Assembly (NCBI GenBank): GCA_017651245.1
Contig: JAGCDQ010000035.1
Location: 1 to 44,636, forward strand
DNA from: Bacteroidaceae bacterium
GTDB taxonomy: Bacteria; Bacteroidota; Bacteroidia; Bacteroidales; Bacteroidaceae
DNA length: 44,636 nt
Reading direction: 5' to 3'
The notes under the pieces are model-generated. The model was given only the letters and a program-made list of their open reading frames with translations, was not told where the DNA came from and did no database searches. Positions 6,135 to 19,026 of the stretch are shown piece by piece. The translations under genes were made by a program, and so were the position numbers. How positions within the stretch are numbered: the first letter of the stretch is position 1; every line of letters begins with the position of its first letter.

Positions 6135-7415
6135 ATGGAAAGAGACAACATTATTTTCTCTCTTATCGAGAAGGAGCATCAGCGTCAGCTGAAAGGTATT
6201 GAATTGATCGCATCAGAGAACTTCGTGAGCGACCAAGTGATGGAAGCAATGGGCAGCTACTGCACCAACAAGTATGCCGAGGGTTATCCTGGTCACCGTT
6301 ACTATGGTGGTTGCCAAGTGGTGGACGAAATCGAGCAGCTTGCCATCGACCGCGCGTGCCAGCTCTTTGGTGCTGAATATGCCAACGTGCAGCCCCACTC
6401 TGGTGCTCAGGCTAATGCAGCCGTGCTGTTGGCTGTGCTGAAGCCAGGTGACGTGTTCATGGGTCTGAACCTTGATCACGGTGGTCACCTCTCTCACGGC
6501 TCTCTCGTGAACACTTCTGGTATTCTCTATAAGCCTGTAGGCTACAACCTCAACAAGGAGACTGGTCGTGTGGATTACGACGAGATGGAGGCATTGGCAA
6601 AGGAACACAAGCCCAAGCTCATCATTGGTGGTGGTTCTGCCTACAGCCGCGAATGGGATTATGCCCGCATGCGCAAGATTGCTGACGAAGTGGGTGCCCT
6701 CCTGATGATTGACATGGCTCACCCTGCAGGTCTCATCGCAGCAGGTCTGCTGGAGAACCCTGTAAAGTATGCTCACATCGTGACCACCACCACACACAAG
6801 ACTCTTCGTGGTCCTCGTGGCGGTCTCATCCTCTTGGGCAAGGACTTCGACAACCCATGGGGCTACACAACACCAAAGGGTGTGGTGAAGAAGATGTCTC
6901 AACTCCTCAACTCAGCCGTATTCCCTGGACAGCAGGGCGGTCCTCTGGAGCACGTGATTGCTGCCAAGGCTGTGGCATTCGGTGAGGCACTGAAGCCTGA
7001 GTTCAAGGAGTATGCCAAGCAGGTGAAGAAGAACGCTGCTGTGTTGGCTGACGAACTCACCAAGCGTGGCTTCGCTATCGTGAGCGGTGGCACTGACAAC
7101 CACTCTATGCTCGTTGACCTCCGCACGAAGTACCCAGACCTGACTGGTAAGGTGGCAGAGAACGCACTGGTGGCTGCTGACATCACCATCAACAAGAACA
7201 TGGTGCCATTCGACACCCGTTCTGCCTTCCAGACTTCTGGCTTCCGTCTTGGCACTCCTGCCATCACCACTCGTGGTGCGAAGGAAGACCTCATGGTGCA
7301 GATCGCTGCATGGATTGAGGAAGTGCTCAACGACCCAGAAAACGAGGCAGTCATTGCAAAGGTACGTGGTGAGGTGAACGAGACCATGAAGAAGTACCCA
7401 CTCTTCGCATGGTAA
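6135..7415 (+). CDS. glyA: Serine hydroxymethyltransferase
   Basis: A cytoplasmic PLP enzyme that converts serine and tetrahydrofolate to glycine and 5,10-methylene-tetrahydrofolate, the main source of one-carbon units. The 426-residue length fits the bacterial enzyme. The family landmarks are intact: [10 protein letters not shown] near the N-terminus, [15 protein letters not shown] for substrate and folate contacts, and the PLP-binding lysine (codon 222) within [15 protein letters not shown]. The start is the ATG giving [15 protein letters not shown]. The next gene, rlmN, follows after 53 bases on the same strand, so glyA probably leads a transcription unit. Confidence 0.98.
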
Positions 7416-7468
7416 CCAGCCCATGCGCTGGGCGATTTTCGCCATCCGGCATGTAAGTCAATCACAAA

Positions 7469-8500
7469 ATGAATAAGACCTCACTATTAGGTATGACATT
7501 AGAGGAGTTGCAGGACGTGTGCCTGCAACTCTCTATGCCTAAATTCACAGCCAAACAAATGGCACAGTGGATTTATGGCAAGCATGTGCATACCATCGAC
7601 GAAATGACCAACCTCTCCAAGGCAAACCGCGAGAAGTTGGATTCGTTGTTTTGTGTGGGGTGCATGGCTCCCGTCGAGACTTGCCAAAGCAAGGACGGAA
7701 CGGTGAAGTACCTTTTTCCCACAGAAGAGGGAAAGTTTGTGGAGACGGTCTATATTCCTGATGGCGAACGTGCCACGTTGTGCGTGAGTTGTCAGGTGGG
7801 CTGCAAGATGAACTGCCTCTTTTGTCAGACAGGCAAGCAGGGTTGGCAGGGCAACCTGTCAGTGAGGGACATCCTCAACCAAATCTACAGCGTGGACCAG
7901 TTGGTCGCTGAGGAGGGAAAGACGCCCCTGACCAACATCGTCTATATGGGACAAGGGGAACCACTCGACAATCTGGACAACGTATTGAAATCGACAGAGA
8001 TTCTGACAGCCGATTATGGCTGGGCTTGGAGTCCACATCGCATCACCATCTCGACGGTGGGATTGAAGATGAACATGCAGAGGCTGTTGGATGAGAGTGA
8101 ATGCCACGTTGCTGTGTCGCTCCACTCCCCCATCCACGAGCAACGCCTGCAACTGATACCAGCAGAGAAACAATTCGCCATTGCCGACATCGTGGCACTG
8201 CTGAAGGAATACGACTGGAGTCATCAAAGACGCATCACTTTCGAATACACGATGTTTGGTGGCACCAACGACACGCCCCTGCATGCGAAGGAACTGACCA
8301 AGTTGCTACGTGGACTCAACTGCCGCGTGAACCTCATCCGTTGGCATCGAGTGCCTGAAGTGCCCTTGAAAGAAGTGGAGATGGACACGATGGAACACTT
8401 TCGCGACTACCTGAACAATCACGGCATTCCCACCACGATACGTGCCTCAAGAGGACAAGACATCTGGGCTGCTTGTGGACTTTTATCATCGAAACGATAA
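7469..8500 (+). CDS. rlmN: Dual-specificity RNA methyltransferase RlmN (23S rRNA A2503 / tRNA A37)
   Basis: A radical-SAM enzyme that methylates C2 of A2503 in 23S rRNA, and of A37 in some tRNAs. The protein has 343 residues. The cluster-binding CxxxCxxC is Cys112-Cys116-Cys119 (GCKMNCLFC). Cys105 corresponds to E. coli Cys118, and Cys336 near the C-terminus (AACGLL) corresponds to the methyl-carrying Cys355 of E. coli, so the two extra cysteines needed for catalysis are present. The motifs MGQGEPLDN and ISTVGL are also typical. The 53-base gap after glyA contains two weak 5-bp hairpins but no clear terminator. Confidence 0.97.
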   Translation: MNKTSLLGMTLEELQDVCLQLSMPKFTAKQMAQWIYGKHVHTIDEMTNLSKANREKLDSLFCVGCMAPVETCQSKDGTVKYLFPTEEGKFVETVYIPDGERATLCVSCQVGCKMNCLFCQTGKQGWQGNLSVRDILNQIYSVDQLVAEEGKTPLTNIVYMGQGEPLDNLDNVLKSTEILTADYGWAWSPHRITISTVGLKMNMQRLLDESECHVAVSLHSPIHEQRLQLIPAEKQFAIADIVALLKEYDWSHQRRITFEYTMFGGTNDTPLHAKELTKLLRGLNCRVNLIRWHRVPEVPLKEVEMDTMEHFRDYLNNHGIPTTIRASRGQDIWAACGLLSSKR

Positions 8501-8517
8501 CTCGTAAACCAACCAAC

Positions 8518-9531
8518 ATGAAATTCAGAATTATAGCAATACTTTTACTCATTGCCTTTGCCTTTGCCGCTTGTGACAATCCCACCAAGAATGGGCGCCG
8601 TCGCAGAAGTGCCAGTTTGCTCACCCCTGTCTCGTCAGGCAATCCGTATGAGGTGATGGTGGTGGCAGATGACAGCGTGTGGAACGGCTATGCAGGTGCT
8701 GCCCTGCAGCGTATCCTCGACAAGCCCTTGCTGGGTCTTCCCCAACAAGAACCACAGTTTCACAAGAGCCACATCACAGAGGCACACTATGACCACATCA
8801 CGAACCTGTTCCGCAATATCTTCCGCATTCAGATTGGTAAGGAATACACGATGGCGAAGATGACGGTGGAGAAGGATGTGCATTCCACGCCACAGATGAT
8901 TCTCACGCTTCATGCACCCAATCAGGTGGAAGCATCGGTCTATATCACAGAACACGCCAAAGGCATCGAAGGACTGATCACCAGTGAGGAAATCAACCGT
9001 ACTGCCAATGACTTGTACTTCCAGCACAACATCAAGTTTGCGAAGCAGGTGAAAGAAATGTTTGGCTGCGAGTTTTACATTCCTGTCGATGTCAAGAAGA
9101 TGAAGGTGGGTGAAGATTTCATCTGGGCAAGTGACGATGGACTCTCCTCCATCCAGAACATTTGCATCTACTCCCTGCCATACGTGAGTGAGAAGATGTT
9201 CACGAAGGGTCCCTATATTGCCCTGCGCGACACCATCATGAAGCGTAACATCCCTGGTGAGAAACCCAATCAATGGATGCAGACAAACCCTGAGTTCGTG
9301 TGGACCAAAAACATCACTGTGAATGGCGAATTCGCGATGGAAGCACGTGGGCTTTGGGAGATGCGCAACGATGCGATGGGTGGTCCCTTCGTCAGTCATA
9401 CGAGATTGGATGAGAAAAACAATCGTGTCATTGTGGTCGAGGGTTTTGTCTATGCACCTGACAAGATGAAACGCACGATGCTCAGAAGGTTGGAGGCTGC
9501 GTTATATACGTTGGAAATAGCAAAAGAGTAG
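8518..9531 (+). CDS. DUF4837-family lipoprotein
   Basis: A 337-residue lipoprotein. The signal peptide is MKFRIIAILLLIAFAFAAC with the lipidated Cys at residue 19. An in-frame ATG at 8473 would overlap rlmN and add a hydrophilic leader before the signal peptide, so the ATG at 8518, 17 bases after the rlmN stop, is preferred. The body (VVADDSVWNGYAGAALQRIL near the N-terminus and MTVEKDVHSTPQMILTL in the middle) matches the DUF4837 family of Bacteroidetes, whose function is unknown. It lies between an RNA-modification gene and pdxA and gives no functional clue beyond cell-envelope location. Confidence 0.85.
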   Translation: MKFRIIAILLLIAFAFAACDNPTKNGRRRRSASLLTPVSSGNPYEVMVVADDSVWNGYAGAALQRILDKPLLGLPQQEPQFHKSHITEAHYDHITNLFRNIFRIQIGKEYTMAKMTVEKDVHSTPQMILTLHAPNQVEASVYITEHAKGIEGLITSEEINRTANDLYFQHNIKFAKQVKEMFGCEFYIPVDVKKMKVGEDFIWASDDGLSSIQNICIYSLPYVSEKMFTKGPYIALRDTIMKRNIPGEKPNQWMQTNPEFVWTKNITVNGEFAMEARGLWEMRNDAMGGPFVSHTRLDEKNNRVIVVEGFVYAPDKMKRTMLRRLEAALYTLEIAKE

Positions 9532-9607
9532 GTTGGAGGTTTGAGATTTGAGGTTTCTTGGCAAGCCAAGCGTGCTAAAGATACGATAAGAGATAAGAGA
9601 TTTAATT
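9531..9607. repeat. Two heptamer arrays upstream of pdxA
   Basis: First array 9531-9558: units GGTTGGA, GGTTTGA, GATTTGA, GGTTTCT. Second array, at about 9584-9604: CGATAAG, AGATAAG, AGATTTA. A short palindrome lies between them (CTTGGCAAGCCAAG, near 9557-9570). The 15-mer GGTTTGAGATTTGAG in the first array also occurs on the minus strand between ilvD and ilvB. Confidence 0.65.
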
Positions 9608-9613
9608 TGAATT

Positions 9614-10699
9614 ATGGAAAGAATTAAAATAGGAATCACACAAGGTGATATCAATGGTATCGGTTATGAACTGATACTGAATACATTTGCAGCAGAGGAA
9701 ATGTTTTCCATCTGCACACCCGTTATCTACGGTTCTCCCAAGGTGGCGACCTACCATCGCAAGACTTTGGGAAGTGAGACAAGTTTCCAAGTGGTTGAAT
9801 CGGCTGAGATGGCAAAAGACGGTCATCTCAATATGGTGAACTGCTTTGGTGAAGATGAGCAGAAAATTGAGTTTGGACAAGCGACAGAGGAAGCAGGACA
9901 GGCTGCCCTCACCTCGCTCGACAAAGCGTTGATTGACCTGAGAGATGGGAAGATTGCCGCATTGGTCACCACCCCACTCAACAATGCCACCATCAAACGT
10001 GTTGATGGAAAAGCTTTCAAAGGTCAGACAACTTACATTGAAGAAATGGTTGGTGAAGGTCAGAAAGCCATCAAGCTTTTCATTGCTGACAGGTTACGCA
10101 TTGCTTTGGCAACAGACAAGATGCCTGTGTCAGAGATTCCTGCACACATCACTAAGGATGCCCTTGCAGAACGCCTGGTCATGCTGCACAACACGTTGAA
10201 GCGCGACTTCTTCATCGACAATCCTCGCATTGCCGTTCTCGCACTCAACCCACATGCTGACGGCAAGGAAGAGCAGGAAATCATCGTTCCCATCATCGAC
10301 GAACTCTTCAAGCGTGGCGTACGTTGTGTAGGTCCATACGCTGCTGACGAGTTCTTTGGAACAGGTAATCACAACCACTTCGATGCTGTCCTCGCCATGT
10401 ACTACGACCAGGGCGTGTCAGCCTTCAAGTCGATTGCCCAGAATGAGGGAATCAACTACACGGCCGGTCTTCCAGTGCTTCGTACAGCACCAGCCATTGG
10501 CGTCAGCTACGACCTTGCTGGCAAGAACCTGCTCGAAGACGAACAACCTTTCCGTCAGGCCATCTACACAGCTGTTGATGTGGCACGCAATCGTGTGCGT
10601 TTTGACAAGGAGCGCGTCAATCCCCTGCAGAAGCAGTATGTGGCAAAACGTGATGACTCAGACAAACTGAAACTCGACCAAGTAGAGGAAGAGAACTAA
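9614..10699 (+). CDS. pdxA: 4-hydroxythreonine-4-phosphate dehydrogenase
   Basis: An NAD-dependent, metal-requiring cytoplasmic dehydrogenase in the DXP-dependent route to pyridoxal phosphate. It oxidises 4-phosphohydroxy-threonine, and the product feeds PdxJ. The protein is 361 residues, longer than the roughly 330 of E. coli PdxA, with extra sequence at the C-terminus. Landmarks: GITQGDINGIGYELI at the N-terminus, LVTTPLNNATIKR, the metal-site region GQTTYIE, LNPHADGKEEQE and FDAVLAMYYDQG. Another family member acts on D-threonate-type phosphates, but without neighbouring sugar-acid genes the vitamin B6 role is more likely. Only 22 bases separate it from the next gene. Confidence 0.93.
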   Translation: MERIKIGITQGDINGIGYELILNTFAAEEMFSICTPVIYGSPKVATYHRKTLGSETSFQVVESAEMAKDGHLNMVNCFGEDEQKIEFGQATEEAGQAALTSLDKALIDLRDGKIAALVTTPLNNATIKRVDGKAFKGQTTYIEEMVGEGQKAIKLFIADRLRIALATDKMPVSEIPAHITKDALAERLVMLHNTLKRDFFIDNPRIAVLALNPHADGKEEQEIIVPIIDELFKRGVRCVGPYAADEFFGTGNHNHFDAVLAMYYDQGVSAFKSIAQNEGINYTAGLPVLRTAPAIGVSYDLAGKNLLEDEQPFRQAIYTAVDVARNRVRFDKERVNPLQKQYVAKRDDSDKLKLDQVEEEN

Positions 10700-10721
10700 A
10701 GGAGTTTTTGGTTTCTCACGC

Positions 10722-11771
10722 ATGAAATCCAAGACCAGAAATATCTTCTTTGCCTTTGGACTCTTTGCAGTCATCGTGATGCTGTTCACGTTCAAGGTGT
10801 CGTTTACCCAATTGTGGGCAGACATTTGTCATGCAGGCTATTGGCTCTTCGCCATCTTGGGACTTTGGATATTCCTCTATATGATGAATGCCTGGACTTG
10901 GCGCATCATCATCCGCGGGTCAGGTGATTGCCCCATCCCCTTTTGGAAGATTCTGAAACTCACCATCACAGGGTTTGCCCTCAACTATGCCACACCAGCA
11001 GGACTGATGGGTGGAGAACCCTATAAAATCATGGAACTGAAGCCCTATATTGGCACTCAGCGAGCCACCTCCAGCGTGCTGCTCTTTGCCATGATGCATA
11101 TCTTCGCCCATTTCTGGTTCTGGACGACCAGCATCGCCGTCTATCTTGTCTTGGCTGCGTTTGGCATCCTCCCCATCAACGTGGGAATGGGTATCGTACT
11201 CCTCTTCATGACTTGTTTTTGTGGAGCGGGCATCTACCTCTTCATGCGAGGCTACAAGAATGGAATGGTGGTCAAACTCATCCGTTTCATCAGTCACATT
11301 CCAGGCTGCAAGAAATGGGGACGACAGTTTGCAGAAAGTCATCAGGAAGACCTCATGAAGATAGACCGCCAGATCTCTCAACTCCAATCGCAGAACCAGC
11401 GTAGTTTCTTTGGCAGTTTTGCCCTCGAATTCATTGGGCGCATCCTGCAAAGTCTTGAAATCTATTTCATGCTGTTGCTCTTCGAGGCAGGCACAGGTGG
11501 AGGGCTTACCTTCGTGTACGCGTTCCTGATTCTGTCCTTCACAAGTCTCTTCGCCAACCTTCTTTTCTTCCTACCCCTTCAGTTGGGTGGTCGTGAGGGA
11601 GGTTTTGCGATGTCAGTTGCCCAGATGGGTATGACTGCCGACATTGGTATGTTTGTCAGCATCATCTGTCGGGTACGCGAACTCTTCTGGACAGCCATCG
11701 GATTGCTACTGATGAAGGTGGGCAACAAACTTCCCATTTCTGAAACCACTGAACAAACCACACCTGTATGA
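10722..11771 (+). CDS. Flippase-like membrane protein (LPG synthase TM / UPF0104 family)
   Basis: A 349-residue polytopic inner-membrane protein with about eight hydrophobic segments. It resembles the transmembrane flippase half of MprF (lysylphosphatidylglycerol synthase TM region, UPF0104) without the soluble synthase half. The family hallmark FFLPLQLGGREGGFAMS occurs near residues 284-300, and ATPAGLMGGEPYKI near 88-101 carries the matching N-terminal motif. Members of the family move lipids or lipid-linked intermediates across membranes. Its stop codon overlaps the next start by 4 bases (ATGA), which suggests translational coupling. In this context it could flip the product of the CDP-alcohol phosphatidyltransferase encoded two genes downstream; that is inference. 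Confidence 0.85.
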   Translation: MKSKTRNIFFAFGLFAVIVMLFTFKVSFTQLWADICHAGYWLFAILGLWIFLYMMNAWTWRIIIRGSGDCPIPFWKILKLTITGFALNYATPAGLMGGEPYKIMELKPYIGTQRATSSVLLFAMMHIFAHFWFWTTSIAVYLVLAAFGILPINVGMGIVLLFMTCFCGAGIYLFMRGYKNGMVVKLIRFISHIPGCKKWGRQFAESHQEDLMKIDRQISQLQSQNQRSFFGSFALEFIGRILQSLEIYFMLLLFEAGTGGGLTFVYAFLILSFTSLFANLLFFLPLQLGGREGGFAMSVAQMGMTADIGMFVSIICRVRELFWTAIGLLLMKVGNKLPISETTEQTTPV

Positions 11772-12619
11772 AAATCTTAGGAATCAGCAGAGGACTTAAA
11801 TATTCCCCCAATCTGGCAGGAAATGATGCCGCCATCTTCACCGCTGTCAAAGACGAACTGAAAGCGATGGGACACGAAGTGGAGAGCATCCACGAAAGTG
11901 ATATGGTGGGATTCGACTATACACCTTACGAACGGGTGTTCAGTATGGCAAGAGATATCTTCTCGCTTTTCATGCTGGAAAAGGAAACAGACTTGACGAC
12001 ACAACAAAAGTTCGTCAACAGCATCAATGGCATTCTCACTTGCACCAACAAGGCATCAGTGGCAACACATCTGTTGGAGGCAGGCGTTCCACAACCTGAG
12101 TTTCTGATTGGGAAGCAACGTGATTTGTTGTTTTGTTCGGCTGGTCAGAAAGAAAACATCATCCTTCCCTTGTGGTTGAAAAATAGTGATGGTAGTGCCA
12201 CTGTGGCTGAAGACACCCTCTATTGTTCCACGAAGGAGGAATTCAATACGGCTTTCAAGAAAATGGAAGAGAGAGAGGTGAACCTTTGGTTGGTGCAGGA
12301 GCACAAGGCTGGTGACCTCATCAAGTTTTATGGTGTGGAAGGCACAGATTTCTTCCAATGGAACTACGCCAGTCAGGGACATTCGAAGTTTGGTCTGGAA
12401 AAAGTGAACGGCAAGGAGAAGGGATACCCTGTTCATGCTGATAGAATCAAGTATTATGCTGACTTGATAGCAAAACGGATTCAAGTGCCCATCTATGGAG
12501 GCGATGCCATTATTGATGAGCAAGGTGAATTCTGGTTTATCGACTTCAATGATTTCCCAAGTTTCTCCAGTTGTCGAGAGGAAGCAGCAACAGCCATTGC
12601 ACAAAGAATCATCCAATGA
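11768..12619 (+). CDS. ATP-grasp-fold enzyme of unknown substrate
   Basis: A 283-residue cytoplasmic protein that shows the RimK-like ATP-grasp pattern. There is an N-terminal Rossmann-like lobe (MKILGISRGLKYSPNLAG). Then come NSINGILTCTNKASVATHLL and GVPQPEF (lobe B entry), LPLWLKNSDGSATV (ATP-binding lysine and loop), LVQEHKAGDLIKFYGV, and the metal-binding ending GGDAIIDEQGEFWFIDFNDF. Such enzymes couple ATP to carboxylate-amine ligation; one branch of the fold (inositol phosphate kinases) phosphorylates polyols instead. The substrate cannot be told from sequence. Both ends overlap the neighbouring genes by 4 bases, so it is firmly part of the lipid-like operon. Confidence 0.8.
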   Translation: MKILGISRGLKYSPNLAGNDAAIFTAVKDELKAMGHEVESIHESDMVGFDYTPYERVFSMARDIFSLFMLEKETDLTTQQKFVNSINGILTCTNKASVATHLLEAGVPQPEFLIGKQRDLLFCSAGQKENIILPLWLKNSDGSATVAEDTLYCSTKEEFNTAFKKMEEREVNLWLVQEHKAGDLIKFYGVEGTDFFQWNYASQGHSKFGLEKVNGKEKGYPVHADRIKYYADLIAKRIQVPIYGGDAIIDEQGEFWFIDFNDFPSFSSCREEAATAIAQRIIQ

Positions 12620-13596
12620 AAGAAGAGATACAACAGACCTTGAAATCGAATGACACTGAGGAGTGGTTAGACACAGTGTGGACGCGTCCCATCGGGTACC
12701 AATGGGCGCGATTCTTCGATGCATTGAACGTGCATCCCAACACCGTCACCATCCTATCAATGATCATCGGTGTGGCATCTGCCTACTTCTTTGTTCATGG
12801 TAGTTTCCGTACGGAGGGAATGGAAGGACTTCTCTACAACATCGTGGGTGTCCTCCTGTTAGCTTGGGCAAATTTCTACGATAGTGCAGATGGGCAATTA
12901 GCTCGTATGACGGGTAAAAAGACGCAGTTGGGACGCATCCTCGATGGTGCCGCTGGTGACGTGTGGTTCTTTGCCCTCTATCATGCATTGACCCTCCGTT
13001 CCTACTTTCACCACCATCTTGAATTTGAGTGGTTGGGCATCGAGGATAACACACGCAACAGCATCATTGCCACTCTTGTCTTCTATGCCTTCGCCTGGTT
13101 CTCTGGCATTGTCTGTCATGCTCGTCAATGCGGACTTTCCGACTACTATCGTCAGATTCACCTCTTTTTCTTGAAGGGCAAGGAAGGAAGCGAACTGGAT
13201 AACGCTGCACAACAGCGACGCATCTATCAAGAAACACCTTGGAAGGGAAATGTCATCTACAAGTTGTTCCTGCTCACCTATATCAACTATACACGGAGTC
13301 AGGAAAAACAAACACCTCAGTTCCAACAACTCTGGAAGAATCTTCAAGAAAGATATGGTTCTGTAGATAAGGTGCCACAGGCCTTCCGCGATGCGTTCCG
13401 CCTGTTGAGCCTGCCAATGATGAAATGGGCAAACATCCTTACGTTCAACACACGTGCCATCGCATTTTATGTGTCTTGTCTCATCGACCTCCCCTGGCTC
13501 TATCTGGTGTTTGAAATTGTGGTGATGACGTCGTTATATTTTTATATGCGCCACACACATGAGGGATTCTGCAAACAACTAAACAGCAAACTGTAA
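12616..13596 (+). CDS. CDP-alcohol phosphatidyltransferase family protein with altered motif spacing
   Basis: An integral membrane enzyme family that transfers a phosphatidyl or similar group from a CDP-linked donor to an alcohol. The protein is 326 residues, starting at ATG 12616 (MKEEIQQTLK), 4 bases inside the previous gene; an upstream ATG at 12571 lies deep in that gene and is rejected. The signature is D89-x2-D92-G93-x2-A96-R97-x8-G106-x3-D110-x4-D115. Everything fits the family pattern except the last gap, which is normally 3 residues. It is larger than housekeeping PgsA or PssA (about 180-250 residues). The acceptor alcohol is unknown. Neighbours suggest a dedicated head-group pathway. 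Confidence 0.85.
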   Translation: MKEEIQQTLKSNDTEEWLDTVWTRPIGYQWARFFDALNVHPNTVTILSMIIGVASAYFFVHGSFRTEGMEGLLYNIVGVLLLAWANFYDSADGQLARMTGKKTQLGRILDGAAGDVWFFALYHALTLRSYFHHHLEFEWLGIEDNTRNSIIATLVFYAFAWFSGIVCHARQCGLSDYYRQIHLFFLKGKEGSELDNAAQQRRIYQETPWKGNVIYKLFLLTYINYTRSQEKQTPQFQQLWKNLQERYGSVDKVPQAFRDAFRLLSLPMMKWANILTFNTRAIAFYVSCLIDLPWLYLVFEIVVMTSLYFYMRHTHEGFCKQLNSKL

Positions 13597-13598
13597 GT

Positions 13599-14339
13599 AT
13601 GGTTCAAGCGATTATATTTGACTACGGAGGTACCATCGACACCAATGCACAGCATTGGAGCGAAGTGTTGTGGGAAGGATACCAGCACGTGGGCATTCCT
13701 GTAAGCAAGGAGGAGTTTCGCACCAGCTATGTGGTAGCAGAACGGGCACTAGGCAGACATCCTTACATTCAGCCTCATCATAACTTTCACGACCTGCTCA
13801 CCATCAAGTGTGACATTGAGACGAAGGACTTGCAGGAAAGAGGCGTTTGGCAAGTGTCGGAGGCAGAAAGGAAAGAGAAGAGCGATGCTGTGGCAAACTA
13901 CTGCTATCAGTATGTGCTGAACGTGCTGGAGGAAAGCCGTCCTGTCATTGAGGCATTGGCAAAAAGATATCCATTGGTATTGGTCAGCAACTTCTATGGC
14001 AACATCGAGACCATCTTAAAGGATTTCCGTCTGGAGTATTTCCAACGAGTGATTGAAAGTGCTGTGGTGGGCGTGAGAAAGCCCGACCCCAAGATTTTCC
14101 AATTAGGCGTGGATGCCCTGAGGGATGTGATGAGAAAGACTGAAGAAGAATTGCCTGCCAAAGATATCCTCGTGGTGGGTGACAGTTTCTCCAAAGACAT
14201 CGTGCCAGCCACACAGATTGGCTGCCAGACTGTATGGATGAAAGGTGTTGGTTGGGGAAACGAGACAGTGGACGAATCTGTGCCCACACACATTATATAT
14301 AATATAGGAGAATTATTGGAAGTGTTCCATCAGGAATGA
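13599..14339 (+). CDS. HAD-superfamily protein lacking the usual second aspartate
   Basis: A 246-residue cytoplasmic protein with a Rossmann-type HAD core and an alpha-helical cap (about residues 18-110). Motif I is FDYGGTID: the nucleophile Asp8 is present, but the +2 residue, normally the Asp acting as general acid in phosphatases, is Gly10. Motif II is LVSNFYG, motif III has Lys in GVRKPDPKIF, and motif IV is VVGDSFSKDI. Loss of the +2 Asp is known in dehalogenase-like and phosphonatase-like HADs, so a plain phosphatase role is uncertain. It starts 2 bases after the CDP-alcohol transferase stop and overlaps the next gene by 4 bases. Confidence 0.85.
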   Translation: MVQAIIFDYGGTIDTNAQHWSEVLWEGYQHVGIPVSKEEFRTSYVVAERALGRHPYIQPHHNFHDLLTIKCDIETKDLQERGVWQVSEAERKEKSDAVANYCYQYVLNVLEESRPVIEALAKRYPLVLVSNFYGNIETILKDFRLEYFQRVIESAVVGVRKPDPKIFQLGVDALRDVMRKTEEELPAKDILVVGDSFSKDIVPATQIGCQTVWMKGVGWGNETVDESVPTHIIYNIGELLEVFHQE

Positions 14340-16942
14340 AGAAAGCTGTCATTGGCATATTATTCATGATGCTGTGCTGCTCGATGCAGGCGCAAGTGAC
14401 GGGACGTGTCATAGACAGCAAGACCCGCGAGGCGCTTGACCTCGTGAATGTCTATTACGATGGCAAGAACGTGGGTGAGCAAACGGATGAGGAGGGATGC
14501 TTTGTCATCAAAGAGGACAGCACTTGGAAAGAATTGAGCATCTCCTCCTTGGGGTATCAGACACAGACGATTCGCCTGAAAGATTTTGGCAAGAACAAAG
14601 ACATCACCGTGAAATTAGTGCCTGACACCAAGACGCTGACAGGTGTGACCGTCACCACCAAACGTGCACGCTACAGCCGCAAGAACAACCCAGCTGTGGA
14701 ACTGATGAAGAAGGTGATTGCCAACAAAAAACAGAGCGACCTTCATGCCAAAGATTTCTTCACCTATACCAAATACGAGAAGATGACTTTCTCACTCAAC
14801 GAGGTGAGTGACAAAGTGTTTGACGAGGGAGAATACAAACGATTCGCCTTTTTGAAAGACCACGTGGAACGCTCTCCACAGACGGGTAAACTCATCTTGC
14901 CACTGACGGTCGATGAAACGCTGGCAGATGTATTCTATCGCAAAGACCCCAAATCGGAAAAGCAGGTCATCAAAGGTGAAAGCAACAAAGGTGTGACGGA
15001 GTTGGTGAATACGGGTGAAATCTTTACCACCACACTGAAGGATGTCTTCACCGATGTGGACATTTACCAGAATGAGTGCCGACTTCTCCAATACCCCTTC
15101 CGTTCGCCTATTGCCGACAATGCGATATCCTTCTATCGCTATTACCTGCAAGACACCCTCTTCATCGAGCAAGACAAAGTGGTGGATGTGGGGTTCCTGC
15201 CAAACAACCAGCAGGACTTTGGATTTTCAGGACATTTGTACATTCTGCTAACCCCCGACTCCACGTTTCAAGTGCGTCGTGTGGAACTCACTATCCCCCG
15301 TCGCAGCGATGTGAATTTCGTGGAGAACATGATGATTTCACAAGACTTCACTGAACTGGAATCAGGCGATCGTATTGCAGCCACCAACGACATGCTGGTG
15401 GAGTTGCAACTCACCAAGTGGCTGGGTAAGTTCCAGGTGCAACGAGTGACCCGAATGAGCAACGTGAGCTTTGAGGAAATTCCTCGTTCCTTGTTCAAGA
15501 ACATCAAGGGAAACACCTTGCGCGAACCTGATGCCTCCATGCACGACGAAGATTTCTGGAATGAATATCGACAAGTGAAACTCTCTTCGTCTGAGGGAAA
15601 GATGGACAGTTTCCTTGACCGTCTCACCCATATCAAGGGTTTCTCTATCTTCCTTTTCGGCTTCAAGGCATTGGTGGAGAATTTCGTGGAGACAGGCGAC
15701 TCCCTCCATCCTAACTACGTGGATATAGGTCCTGTCAACACCATCATCTCAGCCAACCACTATGACGGTTTGCGTTTCCGTGCCTCAGCACTCACGACCG
15801 CCAACCTCTTCCCTCACCTCTTTGTCAACGGCTATGTCGCCTATGGCACCAAGACCCACAACGTCTATTGGAAGGGACAACTCACCTACTCCTTCAACAA
15901 GAAAGCCTACTTGCCACGCGAGTTTCCACAACACAACTTGTCGGTCTATTGGTGGGATGATGTCATTTCGCCTTTTGACAAGTATGTGCCTACCGACAAG
16001 GACAATATGTTCACCGCTTTCCATGCCTCAAAAGTGGATCAGTACCACCATGCACGCGAATTGCACATTGACTACACCCGTGAACTTGAGACGGGTGTCA
16101 AACTCTATGCACAGTTCACCCGCACTCGGAATCATCCTGTTGATGCATTGTTCTATCAGCGACTGGATGGTGTCGGCACACCAGTCAACGACCCCACCCA
16201 ATGGCTCTCAGGCATCACTACCGCCCAGTTCAAGGTCGGTGTGACTTACGAACCTAATGTCACTTATGTCAACACCAAGCAGCGCCGCATCAAGGTGAAT
16301 CACGACGCTCCCATCCTTTCCCTTAGCTACACTCGAGGCATCAATGGATTCTTAGGGGGGCAATACAATTATAACCTTACAGAACTGGGATTTTACAAAC
16401 GTCTCTGGTTAGGTCAGTTTGGTAAGATTGACACTGATATCAAGGCGGGTGCACAATGGAATAAAGTGCCTTTCCCGCTCCTCATCCATCCTGCTGCCAA
16501 CGCCTCCTACATCATCGAGGATAACACCTTCTACCTTATCTCCAACCTCGAGTTCCTCAACGACCGCTATGCTTCGATGTTTTTCGAGTGGGACCTGAAT
16601 GGTTGGCTGCTCAACCGCATTCCGCTCATCCATAAACTCAAATGGCGTGAATGCGTGGGCGTCAATGTTCTGTGGGGACAACTTACCGACAAGAACAATC
16701 CTGCCACCCTCAACTACTCTGACCCCGACCTCTTTTACTTCCCAGGTCACTTCCAAGCCGACGGCACGTACGAACAAAACACCGTCCGCATGAATGAACG
16801 CACCCCATACATCGAATGGCGTGTCGGTATTCACAACATCTTCAAGTTAGTTGAAATTGACTACGTTCGTCGCATCACCTATCGTCACGACCCCAACACC
16901 AACCGATGGGGCATCCGCTTCAAAGTGAGAATGACGTTTTAA
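14336..16942 (+). CDS. DUF5686 / carboxypeptidase-regulatory-like outer-membrane protein
   Basis: An 868-residue protein with signal peptide MKKAVIGILFMMLCCSMQAQ. Next is a CarboxypepD_reg-like domain at about 21-105 (VTGRVIDSKTREALDLVNVY; TDEEGCFVIKED; LSISSLGYQTQTI). A DUF5686 region starts near KNNPAVELMKKVIANK, and a long C-terminal part of amphipathic strands ends in FKVRMTF. A terminal Phe after a beta-signal is typical of outer-membrane barrels. Proteins of this type sit in the Bacteroidetes outer membrane and their function is mostly unknown. Its start overlaps the HAD gene by 4 bases (ATGA), and it is the last gene of the unit, followed directly by a terminator. Confidence 0.85.
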   Translation: MKKAVIGILFMMLCCSMQAQVTGRVIDSKTREALDLVNVYYDGKNVGEQTDEEGCFVIKEDSTWKELSISSLGYQTQTIRLKDFGKNKDITVKLVPDTKTLTGVTVTTKRARYSRKNNPAVELMKKVIANKKQSDLHAKDFFTYTKYEKMTFSLNEVSDKVFDEGEYKRFAFLKDHVERSPQTGKLILPLTVDETLADVFYRKDPKSEKQVIKGESNKGVTELVNTGEIFTTTLKDVFTDVDIYQNECRLLQYPFRSPIADNAISFYRYYLQDTLFIEQDKVVDVGFLPNNQQDFGFSGHLYILLTPDSTFQVRRVELTIPRRSDVNFVENMMISQDFTELESGDRIAATNDMLVELQLTKWLGKFQVQRVTRMSNVSFEEIPRSLFKNIKGNTLREPDASMHDEDFWNEYRQVKLSSSEGKMDSFLDRLTHIKGFSIFLFGFKALVENFVETGDSLHPNYVDIGPVNTIISANHYDGLRFRASALTTANLFPHLFVNGYVAYGTKTHNVYWKGQLTYSFNKKAYLPREFPQHNLSVYWWDDVISPFDKYVPTDKDNMFTAFHASKVDQYHHARELHIDYTRELETGVKLYAQFTRTRNHPVDALFYQRLDGVGTPVNDPTQWLSGITTAQFKVGVTYEPNVTYVNTKQRRIKVNHDAPILSLSYTRGINGFLGGQYNYNLTELGFYKRLWLGQFGKIDTDIKAGAQWNKVPFPLLIHPAANASYIIEDNTFYLISNLEFLNDRYASMFFEWDLNGWLLNRIPLIHKLKWRECVGVNVLWGQLTDKNNPATLNYSDPDLFYFPGHFQADGTYEQNTVRMNERTPYIEWRVGIHNIFKLVEIDYVRRITYRHDPNTNRWGIRFKVRMTF

Positions 16943-16974: not shown

Positions 16975-16977
16975 CTG

Positions 16978-17064
16978 CGGAAAGTGAGGGATTCGAACCC
17001 CCGGAACAGTTACCCGTTCACCGCATTTCGAGTGCGGCCCGATCGACCACTCCGGCAACTTTCC
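16978..17064 (-). tRNA. tRNA-Ser(CGA)
   Basis: An 87-nt class II tRNA on the minus strand. Acceptor arms GGAAAGT/ACTTTCC pair over 7 bp with discriminator G at 16978. The T arm contains GGTTCGAATCC. A long variable arm follows the anticodon stem. The anticodon stem-loop is CCGCA-CTCGAAA-TGCGG, giving anticodon CGA, which reads UCG serine codons. CCA is not encoded (the bases after the discriminator are CAG), so it must be added enzymatically. The 5' end lies 4 bases from a 14-bp hairpin, and no separate tRNA promoter was seen, so it may be processed from a longer transcript. Confidence 0.95.
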
Positions 17065-17478: not shown

Positions 17479-19026
17479 TTATTCACCAAGGTACACCGCA
17501 AATGACATCGCTCTGCCGGCTGGAGTCTTACCCCAAATCCAGAGGGTCTGCTCATCGCTTCCCTGTGCCGATTTGAAGGCTGATTCCATATCAGCAACCG
17601 TCTTGATGTTCTGGTTGTTTGCCTTCAGGATGATGAAGCCTTCAGGCACACCAGCATCCTTCAGATAGCCGCTCTTCAGTTTTGTCACCTGCACACCATA
17701 AGAGAGGTTCAGCGTCTTCTGCTGGTTCTCGGTCAGTTCCTTGAACTCTGCGCCCAGCGTATCCAGCTTGACATTTCCATTGACCAGTTTGGTGTTGCCC
17801 TTCGCATTGCGGAAGGTGATGGTTGCCGTCTTTTCCTTCTTGTCACGGATGTAACCAATCTGTGCCTTGTCACCAGGACGATACTTCGTGGTGGCTTCCT
17901 GCAATTCTGACATCTTCGTGATCTTCTTTCCATCCACCGACACAATCACATCACCACTCTTGAGACCTGCATCTGCAGCGGCACCATCGTCCGTCACTTC
18001 TGCCACATAGACACCATCCACTGTGCCGAAGTCAGCAGAGAATTTTTCGTCATCACGCTTCTTGGCATCGATATAATCGTGGAGTGTCATACCGCTGATG
18101 CCAATCATCGCACGTTGAACCGTTCCATAAGTCTGCAAGTCGGTCACCACCTTCTTCATGATAGTCGTAGGAATAGCAAAACCATAACCTGTAAACGAAC
18201 CCGTCTGTGAATACAGCATCGCATTGATGCCCACCAGTTCGCCACGTGTGTTCACCAGCGCACCACCAGAGTTGCCCTGATTGATGGCTGCATCTGTCTG
18301 GATGAACGACTCAATGCCATTCTTGTGTGCACCAATGCCACGAGCCTTTGCCGACACGATGCCTGCCGTCACCGTCGAAGTCAGATTGAACGGGTTGCCC
18401 ACAGCCAACACCCACTCACCCACCTTCAACTGGTCAGAGTCGCCAATCACGATAGCAGGGAGTCCTGAAGCATCAATCTTCAACAGAGCCAAGTCCGTGT
18501 CAGCATCCGTGCCGATGACCGTAGCCTTGAACTCGCGGTTGTCATTCAGTGTGATGGTGATTTCGTCAGCATTCTCCACCACGTGGTTGTTCGTCACGAT
18601 ATAGCCATCATCTGAGATGATCACACCCGAACCGGCAGCCTCACGCTTAGGCGTTTCCACCTGACGACGCTGAGAGCCGCCGCTACCACGACCGAAGAAG
18701 TCACCAAAGAAATCCTCGAATGGGTCACGATATTCGATGGTCTGTTGACGCCCCTTCTGCACCACTTTAATATATACAACCGCATTGCAAGCCTTCTCGG
18801 CAGCCTCCGTCAAATCCACGGGCTGAGCGGCAGGCGATGCTGCAGTCGAGAGTTGCATCATGCTGCGTTCTGGTTCCTGTGCCTTCTTAGGTTCCGTGAA
18901 GGAGAAAGCAGGCAAAACCTTATCCACTGACTTTTGAGAGAGGGAATATGCAAACGCCCCAGTCAATCCAGAGAGGAAGGCAACACCTACAAGTGTGCCA
19001 TAGAATCTTTTAGTAGTCTGTTTCAT
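17479..19026 (-). CDS. HtrA/DegP-type periplasmic serine protease
   Basis: Do-family protease and chaperone for misfolded envelope proteins, 515 residues. An N-terminal hydrophobic segment (residues 9-27) acts as signal or anchor. A flexible Gly-rich loop with phenylalanines (about 103-117) matches the LA loop. The catalytic triad is intact: His148 (TNNHVV), Asp178 (DTDLALL) and Ser253 (GNSGG). A first PDZ domain covers about 285-385 (DAGLKSGDVIVSVDGKKI) and a second, more divergent PDZ-like domain follows to the end (GFIILKANNQNI). It is monocistronic, with a promoter upstream and a terminator downstream. The region upstream of its promoter carries no gene. Confidence 0.95.
   Translation of the reverse strand: MKQTTKRFYGTLVGVAFLSGLTGAFAYSLSQKSVDKVLPAFSFTEPKKAQEPERSMMQLSTAASPAAQPVDLTEAAEKACNAVVYIKVVQKGRQQTIEYRDPFEDFFGDFFGRGSGGSQRRQVETPKREAAGSGVIISDDGYIVTNNHVVENADEITITLNDNREFKATVIGTDADTDLALLKIDASGLPAIVIGDSDQLKVGEWVLAVGNPFNLTSTVTAGIVSAKARGIGAHKNGIESFIQTDAAINQGNSGGALVNTRGELVGINAMLYSQTGSFTGYGFAIPTTIMKKVVTDLQTYGTVQRAMIGISGMTLHDYIDAKKRDDEKFSADFGTVDGVYVAEVTDDGAAADAGLKSGDVIVSVDGKKITKMSELQEATTKYRPGDKAQIGYIRDKKEKTATITFRNAKGNTKLVNGNVKLDTLGAEFKELTENQQKTLNLSYGVQVTKLKSGYLKDAGVPEGFIILKANNQNIKTVADMESAFKSAQGSDEQTLWIWGKTPAGRAMSFAVYLGE

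Follow-up and report, generated by a model that had tools for sequence, protein, structure and literature searches.

Background

A putative alternative gene cluster for inositol lipids has been described in B. vulgatus and Prevotella, in which genes for a nucleotidyltransferase (NTP, BVU_RS13095), a CDP-alcohol phosphatidyltransferase (CDP-AP, BVU_RS13105) and a haloacid-dehalogenase-fold protein (HAD, BVU_RS13115) lie near that for myo-inositol-phosphate synthase (MIPS) (Heaver et al. 2022, PMC9246714). According to the text of that paper, MIPS is sometimes unlinked from the cluster, LPG-synthase and carboxypeptidase-regulatory-like neighbours lie beside it, and CDP-AP and HAD are fused in P. 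veroralis. Both B. vulgatus and P. veroralis make phosphoinositol (PI)-dihydroceramide, while the functions of the alternative cluster are called not confirmed by the authors (PMC9246714). A 2023 review carries the same prediction and describes it as awaiting full characterisation (PMC10191378), and a literature search found no later functional work on the cluster. Neither ATP-grasp nor RimK is mentioned by name in the main text of PMC9246714. Here we analyse a five-gene operon in a 44,636-nucleotide stretch of DNA (the window) from a Bacteroidaceae bacterium (contig JAGCDQ010000035.1 of assembly GCA_017651245.1). The operon probably represents, as a split locus, the core of the putative alternative route to inositol lipids in Bacteroidota, and it includes a gene for an ATP-grasp enzyme (GRASP).

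A five-gene operon with partners on other contigs

The genes of the operon, their junctions and the gene upstream are as follows:

10722..11771, + strand: flippase-like gene (FLIP), membrane protein of the LPG_synthase_TM family (Pfam PF03706, 86.3 bits against a cut-off of 33.4)
11768..11771, + strand: ATGA overlap of FLIP and GRASP, read from the sequence
11768..12619, + strand: GRASP, ATP-grasp enzyme, candidate inositol (phosphate) kinase, with a RimK/MptN-like ligase as the rival assignment
12616..12619, + strand: ATGA overlap of GRASP and CDP-AP, read from the sequence
12616..13596, + strand: CDP-AP, CDP-alcohol phosphatidyltransferase family (Pfam PF01066, 36.8 bits against a cut-off of 22)
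13597..13598, + strand: 2-base gap between CDP-AP and HAD, read from the sequence
13599..14339, + strand: HAD, haloacid-dehalogenase-fold hydrolase, candidate inositol-phosphate phosphatase (Pfam PF00702, 48.9 bits)
14336..14339, + strand: ATGA overlap of HAD and DUF5686, read from the sequence
14336..16942, + strand: DUF5686 protein with an N-terminal carboxypeptidase-D regulatory-like domain (Pfam DUF5686 and CarbopepD_reg_2, above cut-offs)
9614..10699, + strand: pdxA (Pfam PF04166), a recurrent upstream neighbour, not in the pathway

A first-pass annotation, made from the letters of the window, had described five same-strand genes joined by three ATGA overlaps and one 2-base gap, all of which were confirmed by direct reading of the sequence. 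Its family names also hold: four of the proteins pass Pfam cut-offs and the second is an ATP-grasp protein by predicted structure. The CDP-AP is likelier to start at the ATG at 12616 than at the mechanically listed start of its open reading frame (ORF) at 12571 (TTG). Six loci of the same genus preserve the order FLIP-GRASP-CDPAP-HAD-DUF5686 (L035 to L040; L, G and C denote loci, genomes and contigs, the genome of the window being G000), and the same block is present in the rumen metagenome-assembled genome RUG11335 (L135; CDP-AP identity 98%), so the operon is not a product of chance. Neither is the adjacency of DUF5686 due to abundance, since the genome has only two DUF5686 genes in all.

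The same annotation had argued, from the lack of an inositol-phosphate synthase, that the product could be something other than an inositol lipid. The absence is true of the window only. MIPS is encoded on contig C39 (16002-17255; 9.4e-100) and an NTP, 71% identical to the one linked to the operon in L044, on contig C59 (6352-7035), three bases from prs. A serine palmitoyltransferase homologue (2.8e-149) is also encoded, making dihydroceramide a possible acceptor. Because these three genes are carried elsewhere in the genome, the argument from absence fails. NTP stands beside prs in nine of nine same-genus genomes, own included (L115, L117, L118, L120-L125), and MIPS is found in all nine; neither gene was in any of the seven same-genus operon loci fetched. 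The window genus carries a split version of the alternative inositol-lipid cluster. The operon is real, and it was correctly read as one for lipid head-group synthesis and wrongly detached from inositol. A route that persists as separate loci is missed by neighbourhood searches.

The gene set of this genome matches, in homology and order, the cluster in L250 (genome G496), which is presumably that of Phocaeicola vulgatus (B. vulgatus ATCC 8482). L250 has the order pdxA-NTP-GRASP-CDPAP-FLIP-HAD, then MIPS, and P. coprophilus (L168) has NTP-GRASP-CDPAP-FLIP-HAD, then MIPS. The core order is the same in P. abscessus (L193) and Alloprevotella tannerae (L200), MIPS lying within the locus only in L168 of these three named loci. 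The numbering of BVU_RS13095, BVU_RS13105 and BVU_RS13115 leaves space for a single gene between successive members, where GRASP and FLIP lie in L250. In the genus of G112, presumably Phocaeicola, 50 of 61 genomes match the CDP-AP of that cluster at 0.001, 36 of them at an identity of at least 73%.

Co-occurrence, fusion and loss of the genes

The annotation's proposal of a single pathway led to a check of whether the five families co-occur outside this genome; they do so widely, and the proposal was not refuted. In a sample of 151 family genomes, CDP-AP was found in 108 (three weak, 26-30% identity), MIPS in 102, strong NTP in 95 (110 with any match at 0.001) and GRASP in 92. Every one of the 92 GRASP genomes has a strong NTP, and 80 have MIPS; NTP without GRASP is confined to three genomes (G123, G129 and G141). 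Eighty family loci were fetched, 59 with GRASP, of which 59 have HAD, 51 NTP, 48 FLIP, 26 DUF5686 and 19 MIPS. The corresponding numbers for the 31 GRASP loci in a set of 80 named loci are 31, 27, 21, 17 and 9. NTP lies at the GRASP locus in 0/7 cases within the window genus and in 51/52 outside it. The alternative route to bacterial inositol lipids is an unproven prediction, to which these data add GRASP as a regular partner.

Genes of the set are also joined in single reading frames: CDPAP-HAD in same-genus L035 and L036, GRASP-CDPAP in L044, NTP-GRASP-CDPAP in L049, NTP-GRASP in L050, L089 and L090, and FLIP-HAD in L084 and L086.

A phosphatidylinositol phosphate (PIP) synthase of the BT_1523 type was matched at E 1e-71 or better in 17 of the 151 genomes (4 over the curated cut-off), 14 of which have MIPS. 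No genome has both this PIP synthase and GRASP (10.4 expected), and the two sets look like mutual replacements. One cluster or the other is present in 94 of the 102 MIPS genomes and neither in eight, G134 among them.

In same-genus G141 (L249, 11294-13439) pdxA-FLIP is intact, and GRASP, CDP-AP, HAD and DUF5686 do not come after it. Searches of the rest of that genome found neither GRASP nor CDP-AP (none was made for HAD), so these two, at the least, were lost together. MIPS of G141 has a DUF5686 homologue 3.3 kb away (L126), and G141 may use inositol in another way.

Distant loci with Mla and amino genes

When 296 genomes of the phylum were searched with the GRASP profile at 1e-10, 12 matched, including this genome and one other of the family. 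Eleven loci from the ten non-family genomes have NTP, GRASP, CDP-AP and HAD in 11/11, FLIP in 10 and MIPS in 9. In eight of them (L237-L242, L244, L245; Pfam on one representative each) genes for MlaE, an ABC ATPase and MlaD stand between NTP and GRASP, an arrangement that speaks for movement of the lipid across the envelope. Wide co-occurrence, gene fusions and the Mla genes of most distant operons bear out the annotation's view of one functional unit for a phospho-head-group lipid.

Seven of the eleven (the same loci minus L240; Pfam on one representative) also encode a Gfo/Idh/MocA protein, whose best match in NCBIfam is the inositol 2-dehydrogenase model (6.4e-19, short of the cut-off), and a class III aminotransferase. 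It is a fair guess that these loci form an inosamine and are candidate inosamine-lipid operons. Streptomycin-type inosamine synthesis proceeds by dephosphorylation, oxidation, transamination and phosphorylation, an order that the gene content of these clusters would fit.

Four of the seven amino loci have two tandem GRASP genes. At position 62, all 42 aligned GRASP proteins of the family have Arg, as do seven of the distant copies. Eight other distant copies have Gln instead: each of the seven amino loci contributes one of these, and L246 the eighth. That a Q62 copy accompanies all seven amino loci suggests that GRASP meets the cyclitol ring, against which it must be said that L246 has no amino genes.

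Proposed pathway and family evidence

MIPS, by its family, would convert glucose-6-phosphate to inositol phosphate. HAD and GRASP might then act as a phosphatase/kinase pair placing the phosphate for the next enzyme, with HAD removing the MIPS phosphate and GRASP re-phosphorylating inositol, or in the reverse order; the chance of this seems a little short of even. From its family and its strong linkage, the NTP on C59 would make CDP-inositol, from which CDP-AP would transfer phosphoinositol to diacylglycerol and/or dihydroceramide. The last two steps are jointly the weakest: FLIP might flip the lipid so that it faces the periplasm, and DUF5686, as a putative Omp85-like barrel, might serve its placement in the outer membrane. 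A biochemical role can be proposed in this way for each gene, and the Mla and DUF5686 links raise the possibility that a particular lipid is exported to the outer membrane. Where the annotation spoke of head-group synthesis and export, synthesis stands and outward export is suggested by association and the Omp85-like model of DUF5686 alone.

Among solved relatives of the NTP, the inositol-1-phosphate cytidylyltransferases 4jd0 and 2xme rank third and fifth of seven; 4jd0 is so named in PMC12275187. The CDP-AP has profile matches to AF2299 (8.6e-13) and 4mnd (5.5e-5), with weak matches to PIP-synthase models (1.3e-7, 8.6e-7) and solved PIP synthases (2e-3 to 9e-3). The CDP-alcohol phosphotransferase signature is printed as DX2DGX2AR...GX3DX3D (PMC9246714). 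The window CDP-AP reads DX2DGX2ARX8GX3D then X4-D; in ATP-grasp-type rows the first three Asp residues are kept and the fourth is displaced to one residue later.

The window HAD has motif I D-Y-G-G-T and the residues D8, S130, K161 and D195, with D8 and G10 invariant in 30/30 aligned proteins; the HAD domain alone is recognized by Pfam, with no membrane domain (no transmembrane test was run). FLIP falls below the cut-off of the HpnL model TIGR03476, and its role as a flippase is tentative. The C-terminal half of DUF5686 models as a putative Omp85-type (BamA/Sam50-like) barrel.

Other CDP-AP types were observed. A side branch with an IspD-like cytidylyltransferase and no GRASP at the locus comprises L083, L085, L091, L092, L095, L096, L101, L106, L111, L114 and L209, and 9/10 family genomes of this type are without MIPS, NTP and GRASP. 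In L147 (Segatella baroniae B14; 6830-11036) CDP-AP and FLIP adjoin genes for a HisC/CobD-like aminotransferase and for a further NTP transferase, and CDP-APs of the aminotransferase type have Phe at the displaced-Asp site in 29/31 tree rows. In L041, L043, L139, L140, L141, L143 and L163, CDP-AP occurs with FLIP and/or DUF5686 and a common FAD-dependent oxidoreductase gene; ORFs of L139 and L143 read like a fatty-acid-synthase-like (aryl-polyene-looking) cluster.

The ATP-grasp enzyme: kinase or ligase

The window GRASP has no Pfam match at 0.001. Structure prediction gave a model with a mean pLDDT of 92.8, and the solved structures that match it best are ATP-grasp enzymes. In a profile search of solved structures, the whole protein matched two inositol 1,3,4-trisphosphate 5/6-kinases (ITPKs), ITPK4 (7pup, 4.5e-4) and ITPK (1z2n, 5e-4), then the ATP-grasp protein 7drm (6e-4), human ITPK1 (about 5e-3) and RimK (0.023). 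When only the C-terminal catalytic half was used, inositol-phosphate kinases (ITPKs; 3e-4 to 7e-3) took the first five places among PDB matches, with RimK at 0.73. That GRASP is a kinase seems to us nearly an even call. A fuller version is possible and should be held more tentatively: GRASP would be a bacterial inositol (phosphate) kinase related to eukaryotic ITPKs, which with HAD rewires the MIPS product for CDP-inositol of the right configuration, the module being extended in distant Bacteroidota to inosamine lipids (dehydrogenase, aminotransferase, R62->Q copy), with outer-membrane delivery by Mla or DUF5686.

GRASP might instead be a RimK/MptN-like carboxylate-amine ligase that couples an amino acid to either the head group or the lipid, giving an aminoacylated inositol lipid, which we consider rather unlikely. 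Several results pull away from a kinase. In NCBIfam, a library for bacteria and archaea, rimK matches 34/42 GRASP members (best 2.2e-11; residues 55-178 of the window protein) and MptN 31/42 (best 1.3e-12; window residues 76-282, catalytic half included); the Pfam ITPK model PF05770 matches 2/42 members (best 0.02), none at 0.001; and the fold scores are a near-tie. The window protein scores 27 bits against RimK TIGR00768, where the cut-off is 143.4. Against a ligase, solved inositol-phosphate kinases are matched ahead of RimK by the catalytic half, Lys occupies position 186 in 42/42 members where the aligned 7drm has Arg, and no amine-making gene recurs in family GRASP loci.

Weighing of other pathways

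Enzyme activities at this locus are all predicted from sequence, and a number of observations count against the inositol-lipid pathway as drawn. The two best solved matches of the NTP are heptose-pathway nucleotidyltransferases. The CDP-AP departs from canonical DX3D spacing, the fourth position being G, A or S in 85/85 ATP-grasp-type rows, and a quick tree puts window-genus CDP-APs with aryl-polyene-like and aminotransferase-type branches, which have no ATP-grasp, and not with most NTP-linked ones. Phosphatases of the HAD type usually carry an acid/base Asp at a motif site where HAD has Gly in 30/30. In rearranged L105 and L211, GRASP-HAD-MIPS stand apart from NTP-CDPAP, and in L079/L130 GRASP-NTP are apart from CDPAP-HAD-MIPS. 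G141 keeps NTP, MIPS and FLIP without GRASP or CDP-AP, and G134 (86% complete; L113) has MIPS and CDPAP-FLIP-HAD with neither NTP nor GRASP. MIPS was not found in 12/92 GRASP genomes, six of them at least 93% complete; imported inositol could be the source in these.

The genomes without MIPS are among the grounds for the reading of the first-pass annotation, an unusual non-inositol head group; other CDP-AP branches adjoin IspD-like or aminotransferase genes, and those of the window genus branch near the aminotransferase type. However, MIPS and NTP are encoded in this very genome and the ATP-grasp/HAD type is tied to MIPS, while 9/10 IspD-type genomes are without it, so such a head group is improbable. 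A mycobacteria-like route, in which CDP-AP joins inositol phosphate to CDP-diacylglycerol, HAD dephosphorylates the PIP-lipid, and NTP and GRASP are accessory, would suit the weak CDP-AP matches to PIP synthases and the presence of HAD in every GRASP locus (59/59 and 31/31). It sits poorly with the NTP in 92/92 GRASP genomes, also where unlinked, with the fusion of NTP to GRASP in several loci, with the better CDP-AP match to 4mnd, named for CDP-inositol use, and with the pairing of sister CDP-APs with other cytidylyltransferase-like genes; we think it very unlikely. Much the same small chance attaches to HAD being the PI-dihydroceramide synthase and acting last, as Heaver et al. suggest (PMC9246714). 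CDP-AP-HAD fusions here (L035, L036) and in P. veroralis (PMC9246714) are as such a role might produce, but HAD is also fused to FLIP (L084, L086), groups with GRASP and MIPS in L105 and L211, and has by Pfam a HAD domain and no membrane domain (no transmembrane test was run).

Flanking genes

pdxA ends 22 bases before the operon; the transcript may start further upstream and include pdxA. The run glyA-rlmN-DUF4837-pdxA before the block is a recurrent synteny, and pdxA is present in 47/59 family loci with GRASP. Downstream on the minus strand are a tRNA-Ser(cga) (window 16977-17064) and an ORF (window 17479-19026) that reads, by eye and with no family search, like an HtrA-type protease. By ORF reading, the genome also has two phosphatidylserine decarboxylase-synthase pairs, on C25 (L002) and C58 (L003).

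Comparison with known systems

The alternative cluster of Heaver et al. shares CDP-AP, HAD, NTP, MIPS and LPG-synthase-type and carboxypeptidase-regulatory-like neighbours with the genes described here (PMC9246714). It differs in that NTP and MIPS of the window genome are on other contigs and that the window operon has a GRASP gene. BT_1522-1526 of B. thetaiotaomicron has the inositol head group, MIPS and the same two types of neighbour in common (PMC9246714). A PIP intermediate is used there, whereas strong PIP synthases never occur in a GRASP genome among the 151 examined, and the window CDP-AP scores 28.9 bits against the BT_1523-type PIP synthase model NF052561 (cut-off 350). In the ceramide phosphoglycerate pathway of Caulobacter, the nucleotidyltransferase CpgD, likened there to inositol-1-phosphate cytidylyltransferase, similarly makes a CDP-head-group for a sphingolipid, but the head group is glycerate (PMC12275187); the main text of that paper is without the words ATP-grasp and CDP-alcohol.

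The CDP-inositol enzymes of hyperthermophiles (IPCT and DIPPS; 4jd0, 2xme, 4mnd) resemble the predicted route in having a nucleotidyltransferase and a CDP-AP working from inositol phosphate, and differ in the acceptor. We know of no ATP-grasp or HAD partner for them. ITPKs resemble the catalytic half of GRASP in profile and fold, although the Pfam ITPK family model is unmatched at 0.001 and the substrate of GRASP is a predicted one. If GRASP is a kinase, bacteria use an ITPK-like step for lipids.

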